In this document: positions 43,212-56,271 of the stretch, in pieces
Layout of the letters: each line of letters opens with the position of its first letter
How positions within the stretch are numbered: position 1 is the stretch's first letter
NCBI RefSeq assembly: GCF_000024185.1
Contig: NC_013790.1
Span: 1,573,501 to 1,637,500, forward strand
DNA length: 64,000 nucleotides
Source: Methanobrevibacter ruminantium M1
Lineage (GTDB): Archaea > Methanobacteriota > Methanobacteria > Methanobacteriales > Methanobacteriaceae
Reading direction: 5' to 3'
The notes under the pieces: model-generated
Database searches by the model: none
Told to the model about the DNA's origin: nothing
What the model saw: only the letters and a program-made list of their open reading frames with translations
Made by a program: the position numbers and the translations under genes

Positions 43212-43670
<459 letters not shown>

Positions 43671-45375: not shown

Positions 45376-46209
45376 TTATTTTCCAAGCAGATCTAGGATT
45401 TTCTGACGGGCCTCGCCGATTGTCAAAGGATACTCTCCGCCGAAATCTATATCATTGTTCTTTTCCAATATCTCAGCAAGGTGAGTTACCCTTGGAAGTC
45501 TTAAATCAGCTTTTCTGATTGTTTCAACATCTGAAAATACCTCTTTAGGAGTGCCTGACTTTATAATCTCCCCATCGCTGATTAGAAATATCTTAGATGA
45601 ATATACCGGTACAAGACCTACATCGTGGGTTGAAATGACAATGGTCATCCCCTCTTCATTCAATGAGTATAGCAATTTAAGAATATGGGAAGCTCCCTTT
45701 GGGTCAAGACCTGAAGTAGGCTCATCCAGAATCATTATCTCAGGTTCCATAGCCAAAATTCCTGCAATGGCTATTCTTTTCTTCTGTCCTCCGCTTAGAT
45801 GGTGTGGAGATTTCTTCTCAAATCCTCCCATTCCAACCTTTTCAAGGGAATCCTTAACCCTCTTTTCAACCTCTTCAATAGGAAGGCCTAGATTCATAGG
45901 GCCGAAGGCAACATCCTCCTCTACAGTAGGGGCGAACAATTGATTGTCAGGGTTTTGGAAAACGATTCCAACCTTCTGACGAGCGAGCATAAGCTCTTCC
46001 TTGCCATAGGATAATTTTTCTCCATCTATATAGATTTCACCTGACTTTGGCTGGTGAATGCCGTTGAAATGCAAAAATAAAGTTGATTTCCCTGCGCCGT
46101 TTCTTCCTAAAAGAGAGACCATCTCTCCCTTTTCCACCTTGAAATTTATATTGTTTAGTGCAACTGTACCGTCTGGATATGCATAAACAATGTCTCTTGC
46201 CTCTAAAAT
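45376..46209 (-). CDS. cbiO: ECF/cobalt transporter ATP-binding protein (CbiO/EcfA-like), ATT start proposed
   Basis: With the start proposed here, 277 residues, usual for CbiO/EcfA. Marks: LEARDIVYAYPDGTVALNNI, Walker A GRNGAGKST (residues 35-43), Q-loop VFQNPDNQLFAPTVEEDVAFG, signature LSGGQKKR and Walker B IMILDEPTSGLDP. The first usual start codon in frame (GTG at 46137) would remove the N-terminal strand that all relatives have. Upstream the homologous sequence runs back to ATT at 46209, 7 nt after GGAGG (46217-46221) and about 40 nt after a TATA box. It powers uptake of cobalt or a vitamin; membrane partners are not adjacent, but a complete ECF set lies upstream. Confidence 0.9.
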   Translation of the reverse strand: MLEARDIVYAYPDGTVALNNINFKVEKGEMVSLLGRNGAGKSTLFLHFNGIHQPKSGEIYIDGEKLSYGKEELMLARQKVGIVFQNPDNQLFAPTVEEDVAFGPMNLGLPIEEVEKRVKDSLEKVGMGGFEKKSPHHLSGGQKKRIAIAGILAMEPEIMILDEPTSGLDPKGASHILKLLYSLNEEGMTIVISTHDVGLVPVYSSKIFLISDGEIIKSGTPKEVFSDVETIRKADLRLPRVTHLAEILEKNNDIDFGGEYPLTIGEARQKILDLLGK

Positions 46210-46216
46210 AGTATAA

Positions 46217-46255
46217 CCTCCAACAATACTATTATATTATTAAAGATATATAAAC
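46217..46255 (-). promoter_or_regulatory. cbiO promoter and ribosome-binding site
   Basis: Minus strand: AAAAGGTTTATATATCTTT gives BRE and TATA at about 46246-46255; transcription would start near 46224, just before GTTGGAGGTTATACT. The short leader places the ribosome-binding site 7 nt from the ATT at 46209 and far from the GTG at 46137, which decides the start. Confidence 0.6.
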
Positions 46256-46413
46256 CTTTTAAAAGTATTAATAAATTGGTTTGTTTAGTTTATAAAGTAT
46301 TACTTAATTGTAAAATAATTAATAAAAAAATAGGGAAAAGATAATCTTTAATAGGAGGATAGGATAAAGATGGTTTGAAATTTTATTTATACCAATATTA
46401 ATCTAGTAAAGTT

Positions 46414-47517
46414 TTATTCTATCTGCTTTTCAATGACGTATTCCAAAAGCAGTTTCATGGAATTCCATTCCTTTCGGTTGAAATTGCTATTCAAAATAGA
46501 ATTTAAAACCTTTAAGGCAGGCTTTTTATCCAATAATCCAATCCTATACTGATCTATGATATGAATGATTAATGAAACATATCCAACAAGCTCTGGGTTT
46601 TTTGAGACCTTAATTAAGGACATTATAAATTCCTTTTTCTCCATCTCATCCAGATTCAAGCTTTTGTCATAGAACTCATCCAGATTCATCTTAAATCTGT
46701 CTAGCCTTACAAGTGCATTCAGCTGATATGATGGAGTGAGCCATTGCAGATTAGCCAAAGCCTCCTTTATTGAGCGGATGACTGCATTTGCAATCAATTC
46801 ACCAATCTTTGCATGCTTGCTCACATTCTCAATAAAGTTATCGCTTTGGAGATTTGAGCATATTGCTATGCCGTCTGTGCCTGTTCCGGTTGCTATCTCG
46901 CTAGAATAATTGCTTGAAGTCATAAGGTCCCTTAGAGCCACTGCCTTAGCCTCTACAGCTATCATTTCAGCTAAAAGAAGGGAGCTTTCATCAAGCCTGC
47001 AATTGATTAGGATGATGTTATTGATTGTTCCAGGCTTATTAGGATTTGGATCTTCATTTTCCAAATCAAAATCATATTCTCCGTTCAATTCATAATAGGA
47101 AGCGACATCCCCTGCTGAGACCGCATTAACGCGAACTCCAGCTGTTGTAATGGCTAGAACCTCAATGTCCTTATATCTCTCTACAGCAATTGAATACTCA
47201 TCTATTTGAGCTGAAGTGACCAAACCGCTTAACTTATTGCCCTTCAAGTCAAGTTTATTATAGAAATCGTAGGATAGCATCTCCAAAAAGCCCAATATGC
47301 CACCATCACCATATTCGTCAATGTTCTCCTGTGACAGCTGATGATTGAATACAGCAGAGAGATCTTCGCTATAACCTCCATTTAACCAAGAAGTGACTAT
47401 GGCATTCCTTTTGCCTGCAAATTTCACTACAATTGAATCATGATTGAGAAATATCTCATCGCCATCAATTGTTTTTGAAATGAGTTTGAATTCTTGGGTC
47501 TTATCATCATTTGTCAT
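46414..47517 (-). CDS. cbiZ: adenosylcobinamide amidohydrolase with C-terminal extension
   Basis: 367 residues. The N-terminal 240 residues match CbiZ: KRNAIVTSWLNGGYSEDLSA, ITTAGVRVNAVSAGD, INNIILINCRLDESSLL and EIATGTGTDGIAICSN. CbiZ removes the aminopropanol side chain of adenosylcobinamide (or pseudo-B12 forms), giving adenosylcobyric acid for rebuilding the cofactor; this is a corrinoid salvage step in archaea. The 120-residue C-terminal helical extension is not part of the core family. It lies between an ECF S component and cbiO, supporting corrinoid uptake for the cluster. Confidence 0.92.
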   Translation of the reverse strand: MTNDDKTQEFKLISKTIDGDEIFLNHDSIVVKFAGKRNAIVTSWLNGGYSEDLSAVFNHQLSQENIDEYGDGGILGFLEMLSYDFYNKLDLKGNKLSGLVTSAQIDEYSIAVERYKDIEVLAITTAGVRVNAVSAGDVASYYELNGEYDFDLENEDPNPNKPGTINNIILINCRLDESSLLLAEMIAVEAKAVALRDLMTSSNYSSEIATGTGTDGIAICSNLQSDNFIENVSKHAKIGELIANAVIRSIKEALANLQWLTPSYQLNALVRLDRFKMNLDEFYDKSLNLDEMEKKEFIMSLIKVSKNPELVGYVSLIIHIIDQYRIGLLDKKPALKVLNSILNSNFNRKEWNSMKLLLEYVIEKQIE

Positions 47518-47691
47518 AGAACACTTCCTTTTTAAAAAAAGTCAATAATTATTATAATTCTCTTTAAATATAGTTTAAAGTTTAAAATATATATAATTTC
47601 ATTCTTAATAGAAAAAAAGTCTAAAAAAATAAAAGTCATATAAAGATAATAAAAAAATAAAAAAAGAAAAATTAAGGCTTAAAAACCTTAA

Positions 47692-48393
47692 TTAATTAGT
47701 TAAGTCAATGCTTTCATCACTTGAGCTTGGATTAGACAGATATTTAATCTTAGCTCTTGTAAACATCTTCTTAAACCAGTCATACAATACGACTAAAAGC
47801 ACTGCATTAGTTACTCCGTGAGTCAAGTCATAGGTGAAACCGTTAATGTACAATGCAATGATTGGAGTAATCTGCAATGCGGTTCCTGAATAGAAGATAG
47901 CTGAAATATCAGTTATCCAGCCGTAAAGGAATCCCCATAGGAGTCCGAATATGAATCTGAATGGCAAGCTGTCAAACCTTGAAGCCAAGTATCCTGCACT
48001 TGCTCCCATAAGTCCCCAAGCAAGCATCTGGAAAATGACCCAATATCCCATTCCCATGAATATGCCTGAAACAAATGCTGTAAGGGCACCTACAAGGAAA
48101 CCTTCCTCCTTGCCAAAGACAACCCCCACCATTATTATTACAAATGATGCCAGGTTTACAGCAGGTATTGACATTAGAATAAGACGTCCCACAGTTGCAA
48201 TAGCTGTTAAAACGGCAATTAGAACGATTGATTCAACTGTAGGCTTTGACTGTTCATACATCTTAAAGACAAAATATATTATGCCTATAAGGAGCAAGAT
48301 TGTAAAGACTAGAATTGTTATTGTAAATATTGGAGAGCTGGCTGAAGCTCCGCTTTCCGTTATAGACATGTTAGTTACTAATTCCTCTATCAT
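47692..48393 (-). CDS. ECF transporter S component, probable corrinoid
   Basis: 233 residues, six to seven hydrophobic helices, with IVLIAVLTAIATVGRLILMS and SFVIIMVGVVFGKEEGFLVG, the loop layout of ECF substrate-binding (S) proteins. It lies downstream of the fused A-A' ATPase and T genes and upstream of cbiZ, so it is the substrate-specificity subunit of this complex. The substrate is inferred from cbiZ; sequence alone does not fix it. The ATG at 48393 (AGGTG 6 nt before) is preferred over GTG at 48402. Confidence 0.82.
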   Translation of the reverse strand: MIEELVTNMSITESGASASSPIFTITILVFTILLLIGIIYFVFKMYEQSKPTVESIVLIAVLTAIATVGRLILMSIPAVNLASFVIIMVGVVFGKEEGFLVGALTAFVSGIFMGMGYWVIFQMLAWGLMGASAGYLASRFDSLPFRFIFGLLWGFLYGWITDISAIFYSGTALQITPIIALYINGFTYDLTHGVTNAVLLVVLYDWFKKMFTRAKIKYLSNPSSSDESIDLTN

Positions 48394-48596
48394 TAAAAAC
48401 ACCTAAAAATATAAAAAATCAATAATTATGAATAAATTTATAAAATACTAAAATTTTGAATTTAATCAATTAAATAGACAAGAATAATTTTATTTAATCA
48501 GATAAATATAAATTACTATTTGAATATTTTTCTAGATTTACTTATTTAATCAATAAATAATAATTTAATCACTTTAAATCTAAATTAATGATTAAA

Positions 48597-50534
48597 TCAC
48601 TTTAAATCCCAAATCTCCTTTACATCATCCAATGTAACAGCTTGCGGAATATAATCCTTGACCATCCTATTTACAAAGGTAGTATAGAAGTTATTCTCTG
48701 CAAATATCACCTTAGGGTCGTCATCTATTTGAATGTCCTTATCAAATAGCATCAGACATCTCTTGCAATTGTTTGCAACGAAATCCAAGTCATGGCTTGT
48801 CATTACAATTGTCAATCCATTGTCCACCAATGAATTAAGTATATATGCCAAGTTTTTGCTTGATATAGGATCCAAACCTTTTGTAGGCTCATCCAATACC
48901 AGAACGTCTGTATTTTGAATCAATGCCTTGACGATTACTATCTTTTCCTGCTCTCCTCCACTGCAGTCATAAGGATGCTTATCCAAGAGATTTTCAATGT
49001 CAAAGAATCCAATAAGCTCTTTAAATCTATAGTCTATATTTTTAAACTTTAGATTGTTCAATAGGTCTGACTCTAAAAACTCATTTCCATTCAGCTTTAA
49101 AAGACCATCATAGGTTTCCATATTGAATTCGCTTGCGCTGAATGCATTTGAGCTTAATATTGATTCAAGGAACTCTTCCTTAACTGTGTCCTTGGAGAAG
49201 TGAATCATAGGATTCTGATGAACATATGCTATCTTCAGATTCTTACTATACCTTACCTTGCCCTTTATCGGCTTTAATATTCCTACCAATATCTGAAGGA
49301 AGGTTGATTTTCCTACTCCATTTCCACCTACAAGGCTAAGGAAATCTCCCTTGTTCAATTTAAAGTCCACATTCTTTAGTATAAGATTATTCTTCTCATA
49401 TGCAAAGTATATTCCATTCATTCTAATTAATGTGTTCTTATCATTAGAGAATGGAAGCCTATCCCTAAGGCCTAACTTATTGGAATTGTATTTTTTTGTG
49501 GTCAAACTGGACTTTTGATAATAATCATGTTCTTTTTTGCTTGAAGTGGAATTTTGATTAGAATTATCTTTTTCTAATGAATCATATGCATAATCATTTT
49601 CAAAATTATTATTTTTTTGTACATCTTCATTTATTTTAATTAACTCATCACTAATTATATTAAGATAACGTCTACCCTCACGAATGCTTAAAGGAGTATT
49701 CAATTTAGTGAACTCTTCATATTCGCTTATATATTCCTCATTTTCAAGGTAGTTTTGGCTAAGGCCATTATAGATCTTTGTTACTGCAGGAAGGTAGTTT
49801 TCAAATATATCATCATTAATTACTTCCTCACAGATGTCATGGGCATTGTCATTGAACTCTATCTTTCCATCCTTTAGGAAGACTGCATTGTCTATGAATG
49901 GAAATATGCTGTCTGCCTTATGCTCGCTCATTATGACTGTTATTGAAAACTCCTCATTGAGTCTTCTTATTATTGAAAGGAACTCATATGAAGCGATCGG
50001 GTCAAGCTGAGACATAGGCTCGTCAAGAAGAAGAACCTTTGGCCTTAAGACAAGAAGGGAACATAGGTTGATAAGCTGCTTCTGTCCTCCAGAGAGCTCG
50101 TTTACATTCTTATGGAGAATGTCATTTATTCCAAAGAAGGCAACAATCTCGCTTATTCTGTTTCGAATCTCCTCTGTCGGAAGCCCTATGTTTTCAAGAG
50201 GGAATGCAATCTCCTGAATTACAGTGTCTGTCACTATCTGGCTGTCTGGGTTCTGGAAAAGATATCCTATATCGCATGCTGAAGTGAAATCATCAAGCTG
50301 GGCGATTTCAGTTCCATTGTATTTTATGCTTCCTTCACGTCTTCCGTTTGGCATCAGCTCCTTTTTAAGATTGGTTAGAAGAGTAGTCTTTCCGCATCCT
50401 GAAGGTCCGCATAGAAGAACAAAATCGCCAAAGTTAATATTTAGGCTGATATTGTCTAAGGACTTTTCTAGGGATTCTGTTCCGTCTGAATTTAGATATG
50501 AAAAGCTGAAATTCTTAAATTCGATTAACGCCAT
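48597..50534 (-). CDS. fused ECF A-A' ATPase, two ABC domains
   Basis: 645 residues. Two ABC ATPase halves joined by a polar Asn/Ser/Lys linker (about residues 300-360). Half one: Walker A GPSGCGKT (43-50), YLFQNPDSQIVTDTVIQEIA, LSGGQKQ, LLLDEPMSQLDP. Half two: Walker A GGNGVGKST, CSGGEQEK and VLVLDEPTKGLDP. Both have the Q-loop and H-loop residues (MSEHKAD, MTSHDLD), so both can be active. This is the EcfA/EcfA' pair as one chain. The ATG at 50534 overlaps the end of the EcfT gene by 10 nt, indicating coupled translation. Confidence 0.93.
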   Translation of the reverse strand: MALIEFKNFSFSYLNSDGTESLEKSLDNISLNINFGDFVLLCGPSGCGKTTLLTNLKKELMPNGRREGSIKYNGTEIAQLDDFTSACDIGYLFQNPDSQIVTDTVIQEIAFPLENIGLPTEEIRNRISEIVAFFGINDILHKNVNELSGGQKQLINLCSLLVLRPKVLLLDEPMSQLDPIASYEFLSIIRRLNEEFSITVIMSEHKADSIFPFIDNAVFLKDGKIEFNDNAHDICEEVINDDIFENYLPAVTKIYNGLSQNYLENEEYISEYEEFTKLNTPLSIREGRRYLNIISDELIKINEDVQKNNNFENDYAYDSLEKDNSNQNSTSSKKEHDYYQKSSLTTKKYNSNKLGLRDRLPFSNDKNTLIRMNGIYFAYEKNNLILKNVDFKLNKGDFLSLVGGNGVGKSTFLQILVGILKPIKGKVRYSKNLKIAYVHQNPMIHFSKDTVKEEFLESILSSNAFSASEFNMETYDGLLKLNGNEFLESDLLNNLKFKNIDYRFKELIGFFDIENLLDKHPYDCSGGEQEKIVIVKALIQNTDVLVLDEPTKGLDPISSKNLAYILNSLVDNGLTIVMTSHDLDFVANNCKRCLMLFDKDIQIDDDPKVIFAENNFYTTFVNRMVKDYIPQAVTLDDVKEIWDLK

Positions 50535-51580
50535 AGGAATCTCTCCTTAATTTCTAGATAGATTAAAGGTAATAAAAATACTATAAATGCAAAATAATAA
50601 ATGTTAAATGGTAAATCGCTGAATGAGAAGTCTATTGAAGGATAAATGTTTATCATGCCATATCCTTGTATAAGGCCTATCACTATTATTGATACTGTGA
50701 CTATGATTATTGCAAGGAATATGATGTCTGCAAGTCCGAACTTGTATGAAAGATAGCTTGTTCGCTCATTGGAGTTGTATCCACGGGCTTTCATTGACTT
50801 GGCTGTAAACATGGACTCTTCAAGGGACCATGAGACTGTTATTCCCATGATCTTTCCAAGGACCTTTGCCTCCTTTGCAATGGATTGGAACCTTTTAGAG
50901 GACTTTATCTTCTTGAAGACCCTTGAATCGGAACCGATGTCCAGGCTTGATATGTTTGAGTCGAATTGCTCTAAATCGAGAGAGTCTGAATCTTCTTTTG
51001 AATTATTTTCATCTGAAAGATTATTTTCCTCAGAAAGATTGTCTTCAAGAGAATCATCATTTAAATCATCCTCTTCATCTGATTCTACCCCATTGGCCTT
51101 CAGATTATTCAGCTTTTGAACCTCAATGGCCCTTGAATTGATTAGTGGAATGAACCTTAATGCCATTACAATTATCATTGAGATGATTGGAAGCTTTTTA
51201 GAAAAGATATAAAGCATCTCCTGATAGGAAACTGACCTATTATATGATGAGAAAACCAGAATTACAATGAGAAGTGCCAATGACATCAATATCCCATATG
51301 CAATTGCCTCATAGGTGATGAAGAATCCGTTGAAAAGATATATCCTATGTGCCCCTGTCCGATTCAGGAGGGGATTTAGAATTATAATCAGTACGCTTAA
51401 GGGTATGAAAAATTTCATTATGTTCTTTAGCTCGCTGGAGACTCCCTGAAGAGCGATAAGAATAAGAATCAAAGCTAAAAAACTCAATACAAAATAAGGA
51501 TCGCTAAAAATGAAAGCCAAGAGAACCATTATAAAATAGTAAAGCAAATATACGCCTGGATGAATAGCTGTAAGTTCCAT
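50525..51580 (-). CDS. ECF transporter T component with acidic insertion
   Basis: 351 residues with five to six membrane helices and the two conserved Ala/Lys-Arg-Gly coupling motifs of EcfT: the first near RAIEVQKLNNLKANG, the second SMKARGY. Between them is an acidic low-complexity insert of about 55 residues (EDDLNDDSLEDNLSEENNLS and onward), absent from typical EcfT, in the cytoplasmic loop that docks on the ATPases. It is the first gene of the ECF cluster and overlaps the fused ATPase gene. A long inverted-repeat element lies about 215 bp upstream. Confidence 0.88.
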   Translation of the reverse strand: MELTAIHPGVYLLYYFIMVLLAFIFSDPYFVLSFLALILILIALQGVSSELKNIMKFFIPLSVLIIILNPLLNRTGAHRIYLFNGFFITYEAIAYGILMSLALLIVILVFSSYNRSVSYQEMLYIFSKKLPIISMIIVMALRFIPLINSRAIEVQKLNNLKANGVESDEEDDLNDDSLEDNLSEENNLSDENNSKEDSDSLDLEQFDSNISSLDIGSDSRVFKKIKSSKRFQSIAKEAKVLGKIMGITVSWSLEESMFTAKSMKARGYNSNERTSYLSYKFGLADIIFLAIIIVTVSIIVIGLIQGYGMINIYPSIDFSFSDLPFNIYYFAFIVFLLPLIYLEIKERFLWR

Positions 51581-52215: not shown

Positions 52216-55200
52216 TTATCTTATGTTTCTTTTAGACCTCTTGACGAGTTCAGACGCACACGCGAATATAAGCAGGAATAAGATACATAATACAGGTATG
52301 TTCATGCCTCCAAATGATAATGATCTACTTGATGCGGCATCTTCATCAACATCCAAATTATAGGCCCTTGCAGACTCTGTAACTGCTGCAGATGAGCTTG
52401 TTCCAACAGTGTTTCCCTTTAGTGTATCGGTCTCTGGATTGTTTCCGGAGCCATCCATATCGCTTTGGCTTCCTGAATTTCCATTATTATTATTGACCAC
52501 AGTGGAATTTGAATTGGAATTCTGGCTTCCATTGGAACTGTTTCCGTTTCCATTGCTGTTGGTTTCGCCGGAGCCTGTTCTATTGGTCTGGCCGTTTCCG
52601 CCGGAAGGAGGAGCTGGAACCTCATTGTCAACAAAGATATTGCCTTCACCTCCGTCATCATAGAAAGCACCGGTATGAGGAGGAATCACATCTGCGTGAT
52701 CTGTAAGATCTGTTCTTAGCAATTCTGACCAGTCCTTATCTGAATAGTCATGCAATGGATTGGATACTCCCAATTCTGAGAATATGGCATCAAAGTCGAC
52801 GCCTCCAGGCAATTCACTAGCATCCTTAAGCCTGCCTTCCCTAAAGATAGGACTGAGCTTATTTCCTGCAATGTAATTATGTTTGGAGTTATACAAGCTT
52901 ACATCACCAACATACTGGCCAAAGGCATTTAATGTATTATTGCTTATAAGATTATAATCAGTGTCATAGCCCTCTAGGACATAATTTATCCTAGACCTTG
53001 AAATAACGTAATTGGAATCCACCACTGAATTTAAAGCCCCTTCCAATATCACACCATAGCTTACATTGTTTGAAAAGCAAATAATGTAATTTCTAAGGAT
53101 TGTAGTATTAATTGAATTATAACCTGCAATTATACCTGCTGCATAATAAGTACCATTCACAAATACGATATTGTCGGTAAAACTGTTATTAGTTGCAAAT
53201 TGGTCTCGCTTACCGGTTTCGGCACCTAAAACCCCTAATCCATAAAGGTATGGATCCTTTGCAGAGACAACAACATTATTATGATGAACCTTATTATAGT
53301 TGCTATCATAATAGAGGTCGACTCCTACAATGGAGTTTGTAGACTCCTTAACTGCAGTGTAATACTTTTTAAGGCCTGATGTGGCGTTTATCACATTGTA
53401 GCCAATGTCGTTTGAAGATGAATAGAATAGAATTATGCCATATGTCTTATATACTTCAGGAATAATCATGCCCTCTGCCTCATAGTCATCTACGCTGATT
53501 GAAGTGTCAACCTGAATTGTAGACTCATATTGATGAGGATCGTCTGTACCGTTGACCTTGATTATATTGTCTTGAATCAGATTGTCCTTAGAATCATAAA
53601 GGATGATTCCAAAGGTAAGCTTATCTGCCTTCACATCAATGGAATTGTTTGATACAGTGGAGTCTTGAGTTTCGGATAGATAGATTCCATATCCGCTGTC
53701 ATAGCTATCCAACTTTATTTTGTTGTTTATTACGCTAACATCCCTTACATAATCCAAAAGAATTGCAAACCGATGGTTGTCTTGCTTGTTTCCAGGATTT
53801 CGGTTGACTATTGTAAAACCGTCAACGACGACCTTATCTGATTCTATCTTGATTATTGAATCATAAAGAACTGCAGAATCTGAAATGATCCTTAAAGGCT
53901 GGTTCAGCACAATTCTCTTATTGCGGAAGTCACCTTGGAATATTAGGTCTGCATATTCATAATCCCCCTTAAGATATCCGTCTTCGCCGAAGTATTCATA
54001 GAAGTTGGATTCATTAAGGTAATATGAAACAGGAATTACAGAAATGTCTATTGTAATATTTGAGGATAGATAATAATTATTTCCCGTAAAGCTTATATTC
54101 ATAGTGTAATTGTCCGGAATCGCATCAAAATGCAAACTTGCCTTTCCTTCACTGTCGGTTGTCTTAGCATAGACCTTATCCTTAAAGTGGAAGTCGATAG
54201 AAACGCCGGAGATAGGATTGCCGTATTGGTCCTTAAGGTAGGCATCCAAGTAGTCTCCCCTTAGGACTGTTGTGTTGTAGACAGTGATTGAAGTGGATAA
54301 TTTAGTTATGTTAACTGGAATGGTAGCATTTCCTGTGCCGTTAATGTCAGTTCCGTTAACATCTGTTCCGTTAACATCTGTTCCGTTAACATCAGTAACA
54401 TTAGTGCCGTTAACATCAGTTCCATTAATGTCTGTAATGTTAGTACCGTTTACATCAGTTCCATTAATATCTGTACCATTAACATCTGTAATATTAGTAC
54501 CATTACCCGTATTTCCAGTACCATTATTACCGGAATCACTTGTATTTGTATTATTCAATCCGCTATCTGTATCATTACGCTCTATTTCAGAAATGTCAGT
54601 CAGATTCACAACTATGCCATTAATTGTATTATTAAATATTGCATAATGCTGAGGGACCAACGGGTTTCTGTTTGTATACTTTCCAACAATTATGGCATCC
54701 TCTGGATTGGAAATCTCAATAATATTGCCGCAGACAAGGGAATAATCTATCTTACCCTTTAGAACTATCCCTTCAGAGTCTGAACTTATATTATTGTTTC
54801 TTATTGTGGTATTTTCAACCAGCTTTGATGTATAGATCCTAACTGCACTTGAGCCTATGCCATTTAATGCATTGTCTTCAACTACTGCATTTGACTTTGT
54901 CAGGTTTATGCATGCAGAGGATTCGGTATTGATTGTATTTCCGGAAATGAAGGTTGCATCTCCGCTGGATCTGATTCCATTTGTGCCGACTGTGTCGATT
55001 GAATTGCCTATGATTCTTGTATTGGAACCATAGGTGAAAATCCCTACCACATCGCCTTCCTTGTTCCATTGGAATCCTTCAAGCCTTTTGGTGGAGATAT
55101 TGTTATTCATTATTGTAACGTTATTTCCATCGACTATTATGCCTGCCTCTCCCCCTACATTCAATATGGTATTGTTTATTACCAGAGTGTCAGGTGTTGA

Positions 55201-56271
55201 GACTGTAATTGGCCTGAAGGTATTGTTGAAGGTATTGTTTGCTATAACCGTACCTGATCCTCCCGCCTCTGCCATGAGACAGACCGAATAGCAGTAGGAA
55301 TCATATGTACCGTTTCGACTAGTGAAATAATTGTTTGCTATAATATTATCATGGGACTTTTCCAGATCCTCCCTTGGATAGAAATCACCGTTTCCGTACA
55401 TACAATAGTAGATCATATTGGTATTGTATGTCTCTATGTAGTTTCCATAGAAGAGATTGTTGGAAGAGCCTGTCATTGGTATGGCTGTTGCCTGGCCTGT
55501 GATGATTGTGCTGTTGATAATCCTGTTATTTGAAGCGTTTGACATTATTATACCATAACACTTCATCTGGCTGTTGTTTATTGTCAGATTGACTATATCA
55601 TGACCTGCAGAATTGATTATATGAATCCCGCATAGGTAGAAGGACCCGACTTTCTCATTTCTGTTTACAATCCTTAAATTGGAAAGACTTGTACCGGAGC
55701 TTCCCTCTATAAGGCGTATGAGACAATTGGACATTGTGTCCCCATCTGAGATAGGGAGAATGTTAATATTCTTTGTGATTGAGAATATCTTTCCAGAGAC
55801 ATTTCCAATGAGAAGAGTGTCTCCATCCTTGATGGTTCCTTCCCTAATGGCCCCATCCTTGGATAGGTCAAAGTAGCTTGAATATGAAGAATCTGTTATT
55901 CTTATTATGGAACTGTCTGATAATCTAGTTTTAGAATCTTCATTCTTTTGTGAATTATCCTGAGTTTTAGATGTCTCTTTAGAATCTTCCAAATCACTAT
56001 CCTTTGCTAAATCATCTGATGAATCCAAATCCTCTGAGTCGTTTAAGAGTTGAGAACCTGCAGTTTCATCATCAGAGCTTAACCCATCATCATTAATGAT
56101 GCCATTGTCACTTGAGAAATAATCCGATATGCCATTTGAATTATCAATTACACTATCTTGGGTGTCAGTGACATTAATATTTAAAATATCATCATTTGCA
56201 CTAACTACAGCCAAAGACAAGAATAATATTAATACTAAAGCAAGTATGGAGGACAATTGAACCTTATTCAT
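52216..56271 (-). CDS. adhesin-like surface protein, two beta-helix regions
   Basis: 1351 residues. Order: signal peptide (about 6-25); acidic Ser/Asp segment to about 130; first parallel beta-helix about 160-570 (NNRIINSTIITG, NNTFNNT-like turns); Thr/Asn NGTDV repeat tract 590-647; an Ig-like domain about 655-745 (DAYLKDQYGNPISGVSIDFH); second beta-helix about 745-1175; an Asn/Gly/Ser stalk; and a C-terminal membrane helix (IPVLCILFLLIFACASELV) with a basic end. Surface anchoring through the last helix is expected. GGAGGTGA precedes the ATG. It is smaller than, and lacks the DUF11 repeats of, the protein at 31283. Confidence 0.92.
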   Translation of the reverse strand: MNKVQLSSILALVLILFLSLAVVSANDDILNINVTDTQDSVIDNSNGISDYFSSDNGIINDDGLSSDDETAGSQLLNDSEDLDSSDDLAKDSDLEDSKETSKTQDNSQKNEDSKTRLSDSSIIRITDSSYSSYFDLSKDGAIREGTIKDGDTLLIGNVSGKIFSITKNINILPISDGDTMSNCLIRLIEGSSGTSLSNLRIVNRNEKVGSFYLCGIHIINSAGHDIVNLTINNSQMKCYGIIMSNASNNRIINSTIITGQATAIPMTGSSNNLFYGNYIETYNTNMIYYCMYGNGDFYPREDLEKSHDNIIANNYFTSRNGTYDSYCYSVCLMAEAGGSGTVIANNTFNNTFRPITVSTPDTLVINNTILNVGGEAGIIVDGNNVTIMNNNISTKRLEGFQWNKEGDVVGIFTYGSNTRIIGNSIDTVGTNGIRSSGDATFISGNTINTESSACINLTKSNAVVEDNALNGIGSSAVRIYTSKLVENTTIRNNNISSDSEGIVLKGKIDYSLVCGNIIEISNPEDAIIVGKYTNRNPLVPQHYAIFNNTINGIVVNLTDISEIERNDTDSGLNNTNTSDSGNNGTGNTGNGTNITDVNGTDINGTDVNGTNITDINGTDVNGTNVTDVNGTDVNGTDVNGTDINGTGNATIPVNITKLSTSITVYNTTVLRGDYLDAYLKDQYGNPISGVSIDFHFKDKVYAKTTDSEGKASLHFDAIPDNYTMNISFTGNNYYLSSNITIDISVIPVSYYLNESNFYEYFGEDGYLKGDYEYADLIFQGDFRNKRIVLNQPLRIISDSAVLYDSIIKIESDKVVVDGFTIVNRNPGNKQDNHRFAILLDYVRDVSVINNKIKLDSYDSGYGIYLSETQDSTVSNNSIDVKADKLTFGIILYDSKDNLIQDNIIKVNGTDDPHQYESTIQVDTSISVDDYEAEGMIIPEVYKTYGIILFYSSSNDIGYNVINATSGLKKYYTAVKESTNSIVGVDLYYDSNYNKVHHNNVVVSAKDPYLYGLGVLGAETGKRDQFATNNSFTDNIVFVNGTYYAAGIIAGYNSINTTILRNYIICFSNNVSYGVILEGALNSVVDSNYVISRSRINYVLEGYDTDYNLISNNTLNAFGQYVGDVSLYNSKHNYIAGNKLSPIFREGRLKDASELPGGVDFDAIFSELGVSNPLHDYSDKDWSELLRTDLTDHADVIPPHTGAFYDDGGEGNIFVDNEVPAPPSGGNGQTNRTGSGETNSNGNGNSSNGSQNSNSNSTVVNNNNGNSGSQSDMDGSGNNPETDTLKGNTVGTSSSAAVTESARAYNLDVDEDAASSRSLSFGGMNIPVLCILFLLIFACASELVKRSKRNIR
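54336..54510 (-). repeat. short in-frame repeat coding NGTD tract
   Basis: Repeats of about 18 bp (GTTCCGTTAACATCTGTT and variants) encode NGTDV, NGTNIT and NGTDI units. Each Asn-Gly-Thr is an N-glycosylation sequon, so the tract could be densely glycosylated. Confidence 0.8.

Follow-up and report, generated by a model that had tools for sequence, protein, structure and literature searches.

A predicted ECF-type corrinoid importer tied to CbiZ in Methanobrevibacter ruminantium M1

Introduction

Hydrogenotrophic methanogens all depend on a corrinoid for their MtrA, and to our knowledge little is known about archaeal corrinoid import by routes other than BtuCDF. CbiZ of archaeal cobinamide salvage was reportedly described by Woodson and Escalante-Semerena, while CbrT, an S-component of energy-coupling factor (ECF) transporters, is said to have been predicted by Rodionov in 2009. 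In ECF-CbrT of Lactobacillus delbrueckii (PDB 6FNP), CbrT imports cobalamin and cobinamide with ATP and binds both with high affinity (PMC5997447). Here we analysed the window, a 64,000-nucleotide stretch of the Methanobrevibacter ruminantium M1 genome (G000:C1:1573501-1637500), in which genes for a T subunit, a fused A-A' ATPase, an S-component and CbiZ lie in a row on the minus strand, followed by a lone CbiO-like ATPase. This row had been noted in the original prediction, and all five genes proved to be where it placed them. We consider it likely that T-AA'-S is a dedicated ECF importer of corrinoids (cobamide and/or cobinamide), that CbiZ then trims what is imported, and that CbiO is a neighbour. 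The five genes are:

50525-51580, minus strand: T, EcfT-type membrane subunit (351 aa, including a long acidic insert), accompanied by AA' in orthologous loci
48597-50534, minus strand: fused A-A' ATPase, 645 aa, with nucleotide-binding domains at about 3-300 and about 361-645
47692-48402, minus strand: S-component related to CbrT and candidate receptor for corrinoids (236 aa), with an additional helix at the N-terminus
46414-47517, minus strand: CbiZ, adenosylcobinamide amidohydrolase family, 367 aa (PF01955, E 1e-49, 169.5 bits against a cut-off of 27)
45376-46209, minus strand: lone CbiO-type ATPase, ATT start, 277 aa; judged to lie outside the corrinoid module

The window system resembles ECF-CbrT in its homologous S, in the GxGxW...Q and DxxHxxxN motifs and in its ECF architecture. 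CbrT, however, is a group II S-component that shares its module with others and works with two separate ATPases, whereas here T and the fused A-A' are dedicated and adjacent, S carries an extra N-terminal helix, cbiZ is the partner and the host is an archaeon. BtuCDF, for which the proposed substrate is the same and of which a BtuFCD-like operon exists elsewhere in this genome, works through a separate binding protein plus an unrelated permease, in contrast to a receptor that is itself a membrane S-component. CbiZ belongs to the family of the archaeal salvage enzyme, PF01955, and differs here by its physical tie to an ECF importer.

Results

Sequence relatives of the transporter proteins

A profile built from 25 S proteins matched two PDB chains to E 10, namely CbrT (6fnp_A, E 2e-16) and 4hzu_S (E 4e-6); no RibU, ThiT, BioY, FolT, PanT, CbiM or BtuM chain was returned in that search to the same limit. 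The window S alone gave E-values of 1e-9 for 6fnp_A and 8e-4 for 4hzu_S. S is homologous to CbrT over most of its length, with 27% identity. As a control, a plasmid S-component of another family matched only FolT in the PDB, and weakly. Twelve positions shared by all six bacterial S proteins compared, CbrT included, are conserved in at least 85% of 35 archaeal ones; they include the GxGxW...Q and DxxHxxxN motifs. Against PF01891 (CbiM/NikM), S gave no match to E 1. These sequence comparisons place the archaeal S in the CbrT homology group, and its AlphaFold2 model (pLDDT 83, pTM 0.79) has the S-component fold.

The remaining subunits complete an ECF module by gene content, with T and two ATPase sites. 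T scored only 18.7 bits against Pfam CbiQ, under the cut-off of 25, but shares 26% identity (E 7e-26) with an annotated Latilactobacillus T, which comes from a bacterial T-AA'-S operon. The A-A' protein contains two ABC_tran stretches (Pfam, E 8e-53) and is 30-33% identical to fused AA' proteins on Lactobacillaceae plasmids. Read by eye, its sequence holds GPSGCGKT and GGNGVGKS, LSGGQ and CSGGE, and LLLDEP and LVLDEP, which we take to be the paired Walker A, signature and Walker B motifs, respectively.

A search of plasmid records with S matched 40 records, six of which were opened. The best matches were on eight Lactobacillaceae plasmids (37-39% identity), and the three of these that were opened (L171-L173) encode T, fused AA' and S in the window's order, with an S of equal length. 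Those operons differ from the window in being bacterial and in having, in two of the three, a DUF4430 protein as partner instead of CbiZ (L172 and L173; none among the genes listed for L171). The three remoter S genes opened all lie beside a B12-dependent ribonucleotide reductase gene (nrdJ), two also beside a cob(I)yrinic acid adenosyltransferase gene (pduO) and two beside DUF4430.

DUF4430 proteins thus recur beside bacterial CbrT-like S genes (L172, L173, L175, L176). The domain is also the C-terminal domain of vertebrate B12 binders (PMC4350170). Its position next to CbrT-like S suggests surface capture of B12 in Lactobacillales.

Linkage of S to cbiZ and transfer between genera

Among 150 Methanobacteriales genomes, S was found in 33, cbiZ in 101 and both in 21. 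A phylum-wide profile search, which took in one genome beyond the order, returned the same 33 genomes with S. The scan of the whole collection with S used exact peptide patterns and matched close Methanobrevibacter relatives only (S 92% identical), so the survey does not extend to archaea outside Methanobacteriota or to bacterial chromosomes. Chance does not explain the grouping: 19 of 20 loci from other genomes (L056-L075) contain T, AA' and S together, and the remaining one (L069) is truncated at S. The T of L066 is divided between two open reading frames (ORFs). The original prediction had pointed to co-occurrence of this S family with cbiZ as a check, and the two genes were at most 1.6 kb apart in 13 of the 21 genomes that hold both, in four gene orders:

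T-AA'-S-cbiZ: G000, G033, G031, G034, G021, G032, G011, G012, G068
S-cbiZ on a short contig, counted with the T-AA'-S-cbiZ order: G038
cbiZ-T-AA'-S: G029
S-cbiZ-T-AA': G138
T-AA'-S, one opposite ORF, cbiZ: G123, with a second cbiZ elsewhere in the genome
S and cbiZ both present, unlinked: G022, G024, G026, G027, G035, G036, G077, G126

The T-AA'-S-cbiZ cassette was transferred between genera in one piece, and neither cbiO nor ribC went with it. In a tree of 29 CbiZ proteins, those of G011 and G012 were nested among the proteins of the window's genus, whereas G010 and G013, from the same genus as G011 and G012, carry a different CbiZ; CbiZ of G068 grouped with that of G032, apart from its own genus. 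Constraining the transferred copies to their own genera was rejected (p-AU 8e-5 and 2e-4), and S of G011 and G012 was likewise placed inside the window's genus. The transferred unit comprises T-AA'-S-cbiZ; none of the genes cbiO, TPR and ribC adjoins it in the recipients. The other half of the locus is found apart as well: cbiO, cbiZ, ribC and a glycosyltransferase gene stand together in G010 and G013, where S is absent, and the cbiO-cbiZ-ribC-glycosyltransferase block is separate from T-AA'-S in G026, G035 and G036.

The lone CbiO

The cbiO gene had been predicted correctly, with its frame starting too far downstream: we moved the start from 46137 in the ORF list to an ATT codon at window position 46209. 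This ATT lies seven bases past a GGAGG-type site, and ORF callers miss such non-standard starts. It is kept in all nine orthologues compared, down to 72% identity (L056, L058, L061, L062, L088, L089, L099, L100, L101), with GGAGA in place of GGAGG in L061. An exact TTTATATA preceded by AAAAGG, 45 bases upstream of the start, suggests that cbiO is transcribed from its own promoter. The T and A-A' genes overlap by 10 bp, and AT-rich gaps of 194, 174 and 204 bp separate A-A' from S, S from cbiZ and cbiZ from cbiO. Because TATA-like 8-mers are present in other gaps of the locus besides that of cbiO, a single T-to-cbiZ transcript is putative.

The original prediction implicitly counted CbiO within the corrinoid module, and all five genes could form one system with CbiO as a third ATPase of the importer. 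We regard this as quite unlikely, even though cbiO is the gene after cbiZ in the window and in some close relatives and is next to or near cbiZ in G010 and G013. A-A' already provides both ATPase sites, and CbiO shares 60% identity with its counterpart in a complete CbiMNQO system beside cbi genes (L120), against 28-30% with the A-A' halves. Nor does it adjoin the T-AA'-S-CbiZ cassettes of G011, G012 and G068; in G010 and G013, which lack S, it remains in the cbiZ-ribC block, and the TATA-like box is its own. This genome has two separate CbiM loci. The second holds a CbiM-CbiQ pair at G000:728.9-731.2 kb (L121, G000:C1:724000-734000), about 0.9 Mb from the lone cbiO, and no ATPase gene was found near it in the 10 kb examined, which makes the lone CbiO its natural candidate partner. 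CbiO is probably outside the corrinoid module and more likely powers this CbiMNQ metal transporter.

Corrin-ring loss and the predicted substrate

CbiD is missing in 13 of the 150 genomes. Tetrapyrrole methylases were counted in 18 genomes, including 12 of these 13 (G065 was left out), and numbered 0-3 in G029, G030, G130, G131, G132, G134 and G135. Five others (G037, G015, G059, G106, G107), none of which has S, retain 4-6 methylases, so that their lack of CbiD is more likely an assembly omission. Corrin-ring synthesis is apparently lost in seven genomes, six of them with S; in the seventh, G030 (64% complete), the contig ends about 100 bases past cbiZ (L105), where T-AA'-S starts in its relative G029. 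The association of S with ring loss gave p = 0.0005 when counted by genome, five of the six S holders being one genus. MtrA is kept in six of the seven ring-loss genomes and CobS in all seven, and no FecCD permease was found in G131 (93% complete) or G030.

Alternatively, T-AA'-S could be a CblT-like system that takes up alpha-ribazole or a different precursor of the lower ligand, with CbiZ acting separately in salvage. This would also account for the linkage to cobamide genes and for the CobS kept in ring-loss genomes. We judge it decidedly improbable, since ring-loss genomes require the corrin itself, although the FecCD permease in five of the seven could supply it. Among solved S-components, S is also nearest in sequence to CbrT, a high-affinity binder of cobalamin and cobinamide (PMC5997447).

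A riboflavin importer is very improbable. S scores 48.6 bits (E 1e-12, cut-off 26.7) in PF07155, a family named for riboflavin, and RibC, riboflavin synthase, is encoded at 43212-43670, four genes downstream of S. PF07155, however, also captures an S protein from one of the bacterial T-AA'-S operons of the type that adjoins DUF4430, and no RibU structure was among the matches of the S profile in the PDB to E 10. The ribC gene remains with cbiZ where S is absent (G010 and G013; L088, L089), and the two genes S and ribC are apart in at least nine genomes (G011, G012, G068, G029, G138, G123, G016-G018, G126). Genes for another vitamin beside S orthologues, named in the original prediction as evidence against it, were looked for: ribC is near S here but separable, and the modABC genes downstream of S in G026, and in G036 as judged by gene sizes only, are for molybdate, which is no vitamin. 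Least probable of all is a cobalt or nickel ECF transporter: the S model aligns with NikM (VIA-align Z 15.0) and CbiM (Z 13.8), extra N-terminal helix included, and the lone CbiO adjoins the module, but S has no CbiM/NikM family match, the two CbiM loci lie elsewhere in the genome and no CbiN-like gene was seen in the module.

S genes and their neighbours in other genera

In genus g13, the S profile matched one to five stretches per genome, some of them fragments at contig ends. Each of the six genomes has one T-AA' pair without an adjacent S (L136-L141), and G131 has a second T-AA' pair, this one with S (L054). The arrangement of a separate T-AA' with several S genes resembles a shared, group II-like module.

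Directly upstream of orphan S genes in g13, on the same strand, we observed genes for secreted-type beta-helix/Chlam_PMP or DUF3344 proteins (L043, L046, L047, L048, L050, L051). Among the 11 g13 S loci with an ORF upstream, 6 had such a surface-protein gene; judged by composition, 12 of 112 g13 ORFs were of surface type, compared to 0 of 47 near T-AA'. Some of these six cases are orthologous, and the set perhaps represents two events. It is conceivable, if on balance doubtful, that these gut-type methanogens are corrinoid auxotrophs with many CbrT-type S proteins working on one T-AA' pair, and that several of the S genes are cotranscribed with corrinoid-capturing surface proteins as an archaeal counterpart of DUF4430.

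In g8, which lacks cbiZ, an extra TIM-barrel paralogue directly follows S in all three genomes with S (L072:8983-9726, L073:8554-9285, L074:6362-7105). Its best NCBIfam match is CbiR (60, 59 and 75 bits; NF041277 cut-off 105). We rejected a CbiR link on these scores, as paralogues occur in 149 of 150 genomes with the same scores where tested (62-65 bits), all below the cut-off. The third CbiR-like copy does go with S, with three matches each in G016, G017 and G018 compared to two in G020, which has no S; G019 (64% complete) has zero. As a corrinoid link, the CbiR-like gene after S in g8 is only a hint.

Other neighbours were recorded as well. The convergent neighbour of S in G126 encodes a 1912-aa CobN/Mg-chelatase-like protein with a carboxypeptidase-regulatory-like domain (L075:3754-9492). 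Where cbiZ lies beside thermosome genes (g9) or an opposite-strand two-domain ATP-binding cassette (ABC) ATPase gene (g12), the neighbours gave no functional lead. Upstream of T in the window, on the same strand, is a gene for a 1351-aa beta-helix adhesin (52216-56271), whose position is kept in several close relatives.

Discussion

The original prediction put S forward as a candidate corrinoid receptor, and this is supported by homology to CbrT, the B12-gene neighbours of its bacterial relatives, its linkage to cbiZ, the transfer of the cassette and its distribution among ring-loss genomes. We infer the substrate, the direction of transport and the CbiZ step of the module; the corrinoid step rests on homology and gene context, and the CbiZ step on family membership.

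Several observations weigh against a dedicated corrinoid importer that works with CbiZ. Structural ranking fails to single out CbrT: VIA-align Z values for the S model were 16.6 for FolT, 16.2 for 4hzu_S, 15.0 for NikM, 13.8 for CbiM, 10.8 for CbrT and 10.7 for BtuM, and Foldseek ranked CbrT 48th. With FolT and 4hzu_S placed above CbrT, we treat the fold as uninformative on substrate. In eight of the 21 genomes that hold both genes, cbiZ is unlinked to S, though in one of them (G024) the contig ends about 400 bases past S. In a further 80 genomes cbiZ is present and no S was detected, which shows that cbiZ can do without this S. Conversely, S occurs without cbiZ in six g13 genomes (G130-G135), three g8 genomes (G016-G018) and the drafts G023, G025 and G028. 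With five of six S holders from one genus, the ring losses may be only two independent events, and the FecCD permease in five of the seven ring-loss genomes is a possible corrinoid importer. The window genome itself has complete-looking ring synthesis and one BtuFCD-like transporter, which makes the ECF importer non-essential there. Finally, an Rfam scan of the window found no RNA element and no cobalamin riboswitch; such riboswitches are rare in archaea.

In the mechanism that we propose, S would bind a corrinoid outside the cell, and ATP hydrolysis by A-A', coupled via T, would topple S so that the corrinoid is released inside. Corrinoids that are incomplete, or cobamides carrying an unsuitable lower ligand, would then be cleaved by CbiZ to cobyric acid, and the CbiB-CobY-CobS route of the cell could rebuild this into the native cobamide for the methyltransferase MtrA. 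The CbiB and CobY steps are those of the archaeal pathway; of the late genes, CobS alone was searched for. In this species, the module may serve as a salvage route alongside full de novo synthesis.

A rumen genome survey lists 21 archaeal genomes with B12 salvage enzymes, and the accessible part of its main text does not use the term ECF (PMC6118326). Our search of PubMed Central, with most subscription journals outside its reach, found no link between ECF transporters and cbiZ and no archaeal CbrT, in agreement with the earlier remark that ECF-type corrinoid uptake in archaea is little described. The kind of transporter is known; what looks new is its archaeal form, its association with CbiZ and its pattern among methanogens that apparently lost ring synthesis, allowing for a possible earlier archaeal prediction by Rodionov in 2009.

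A CbrT-type ECF importer tied to CbiZ offers a named, testable route for corrinoid uptake in a main rumen methane producer. For relatives without ring synthesis, the importer may be a lifeline, and methanogens that have lost the ring pathway while keeping S, MtrA and CobS are predicted to depend on the corrinoids of their neighbours.

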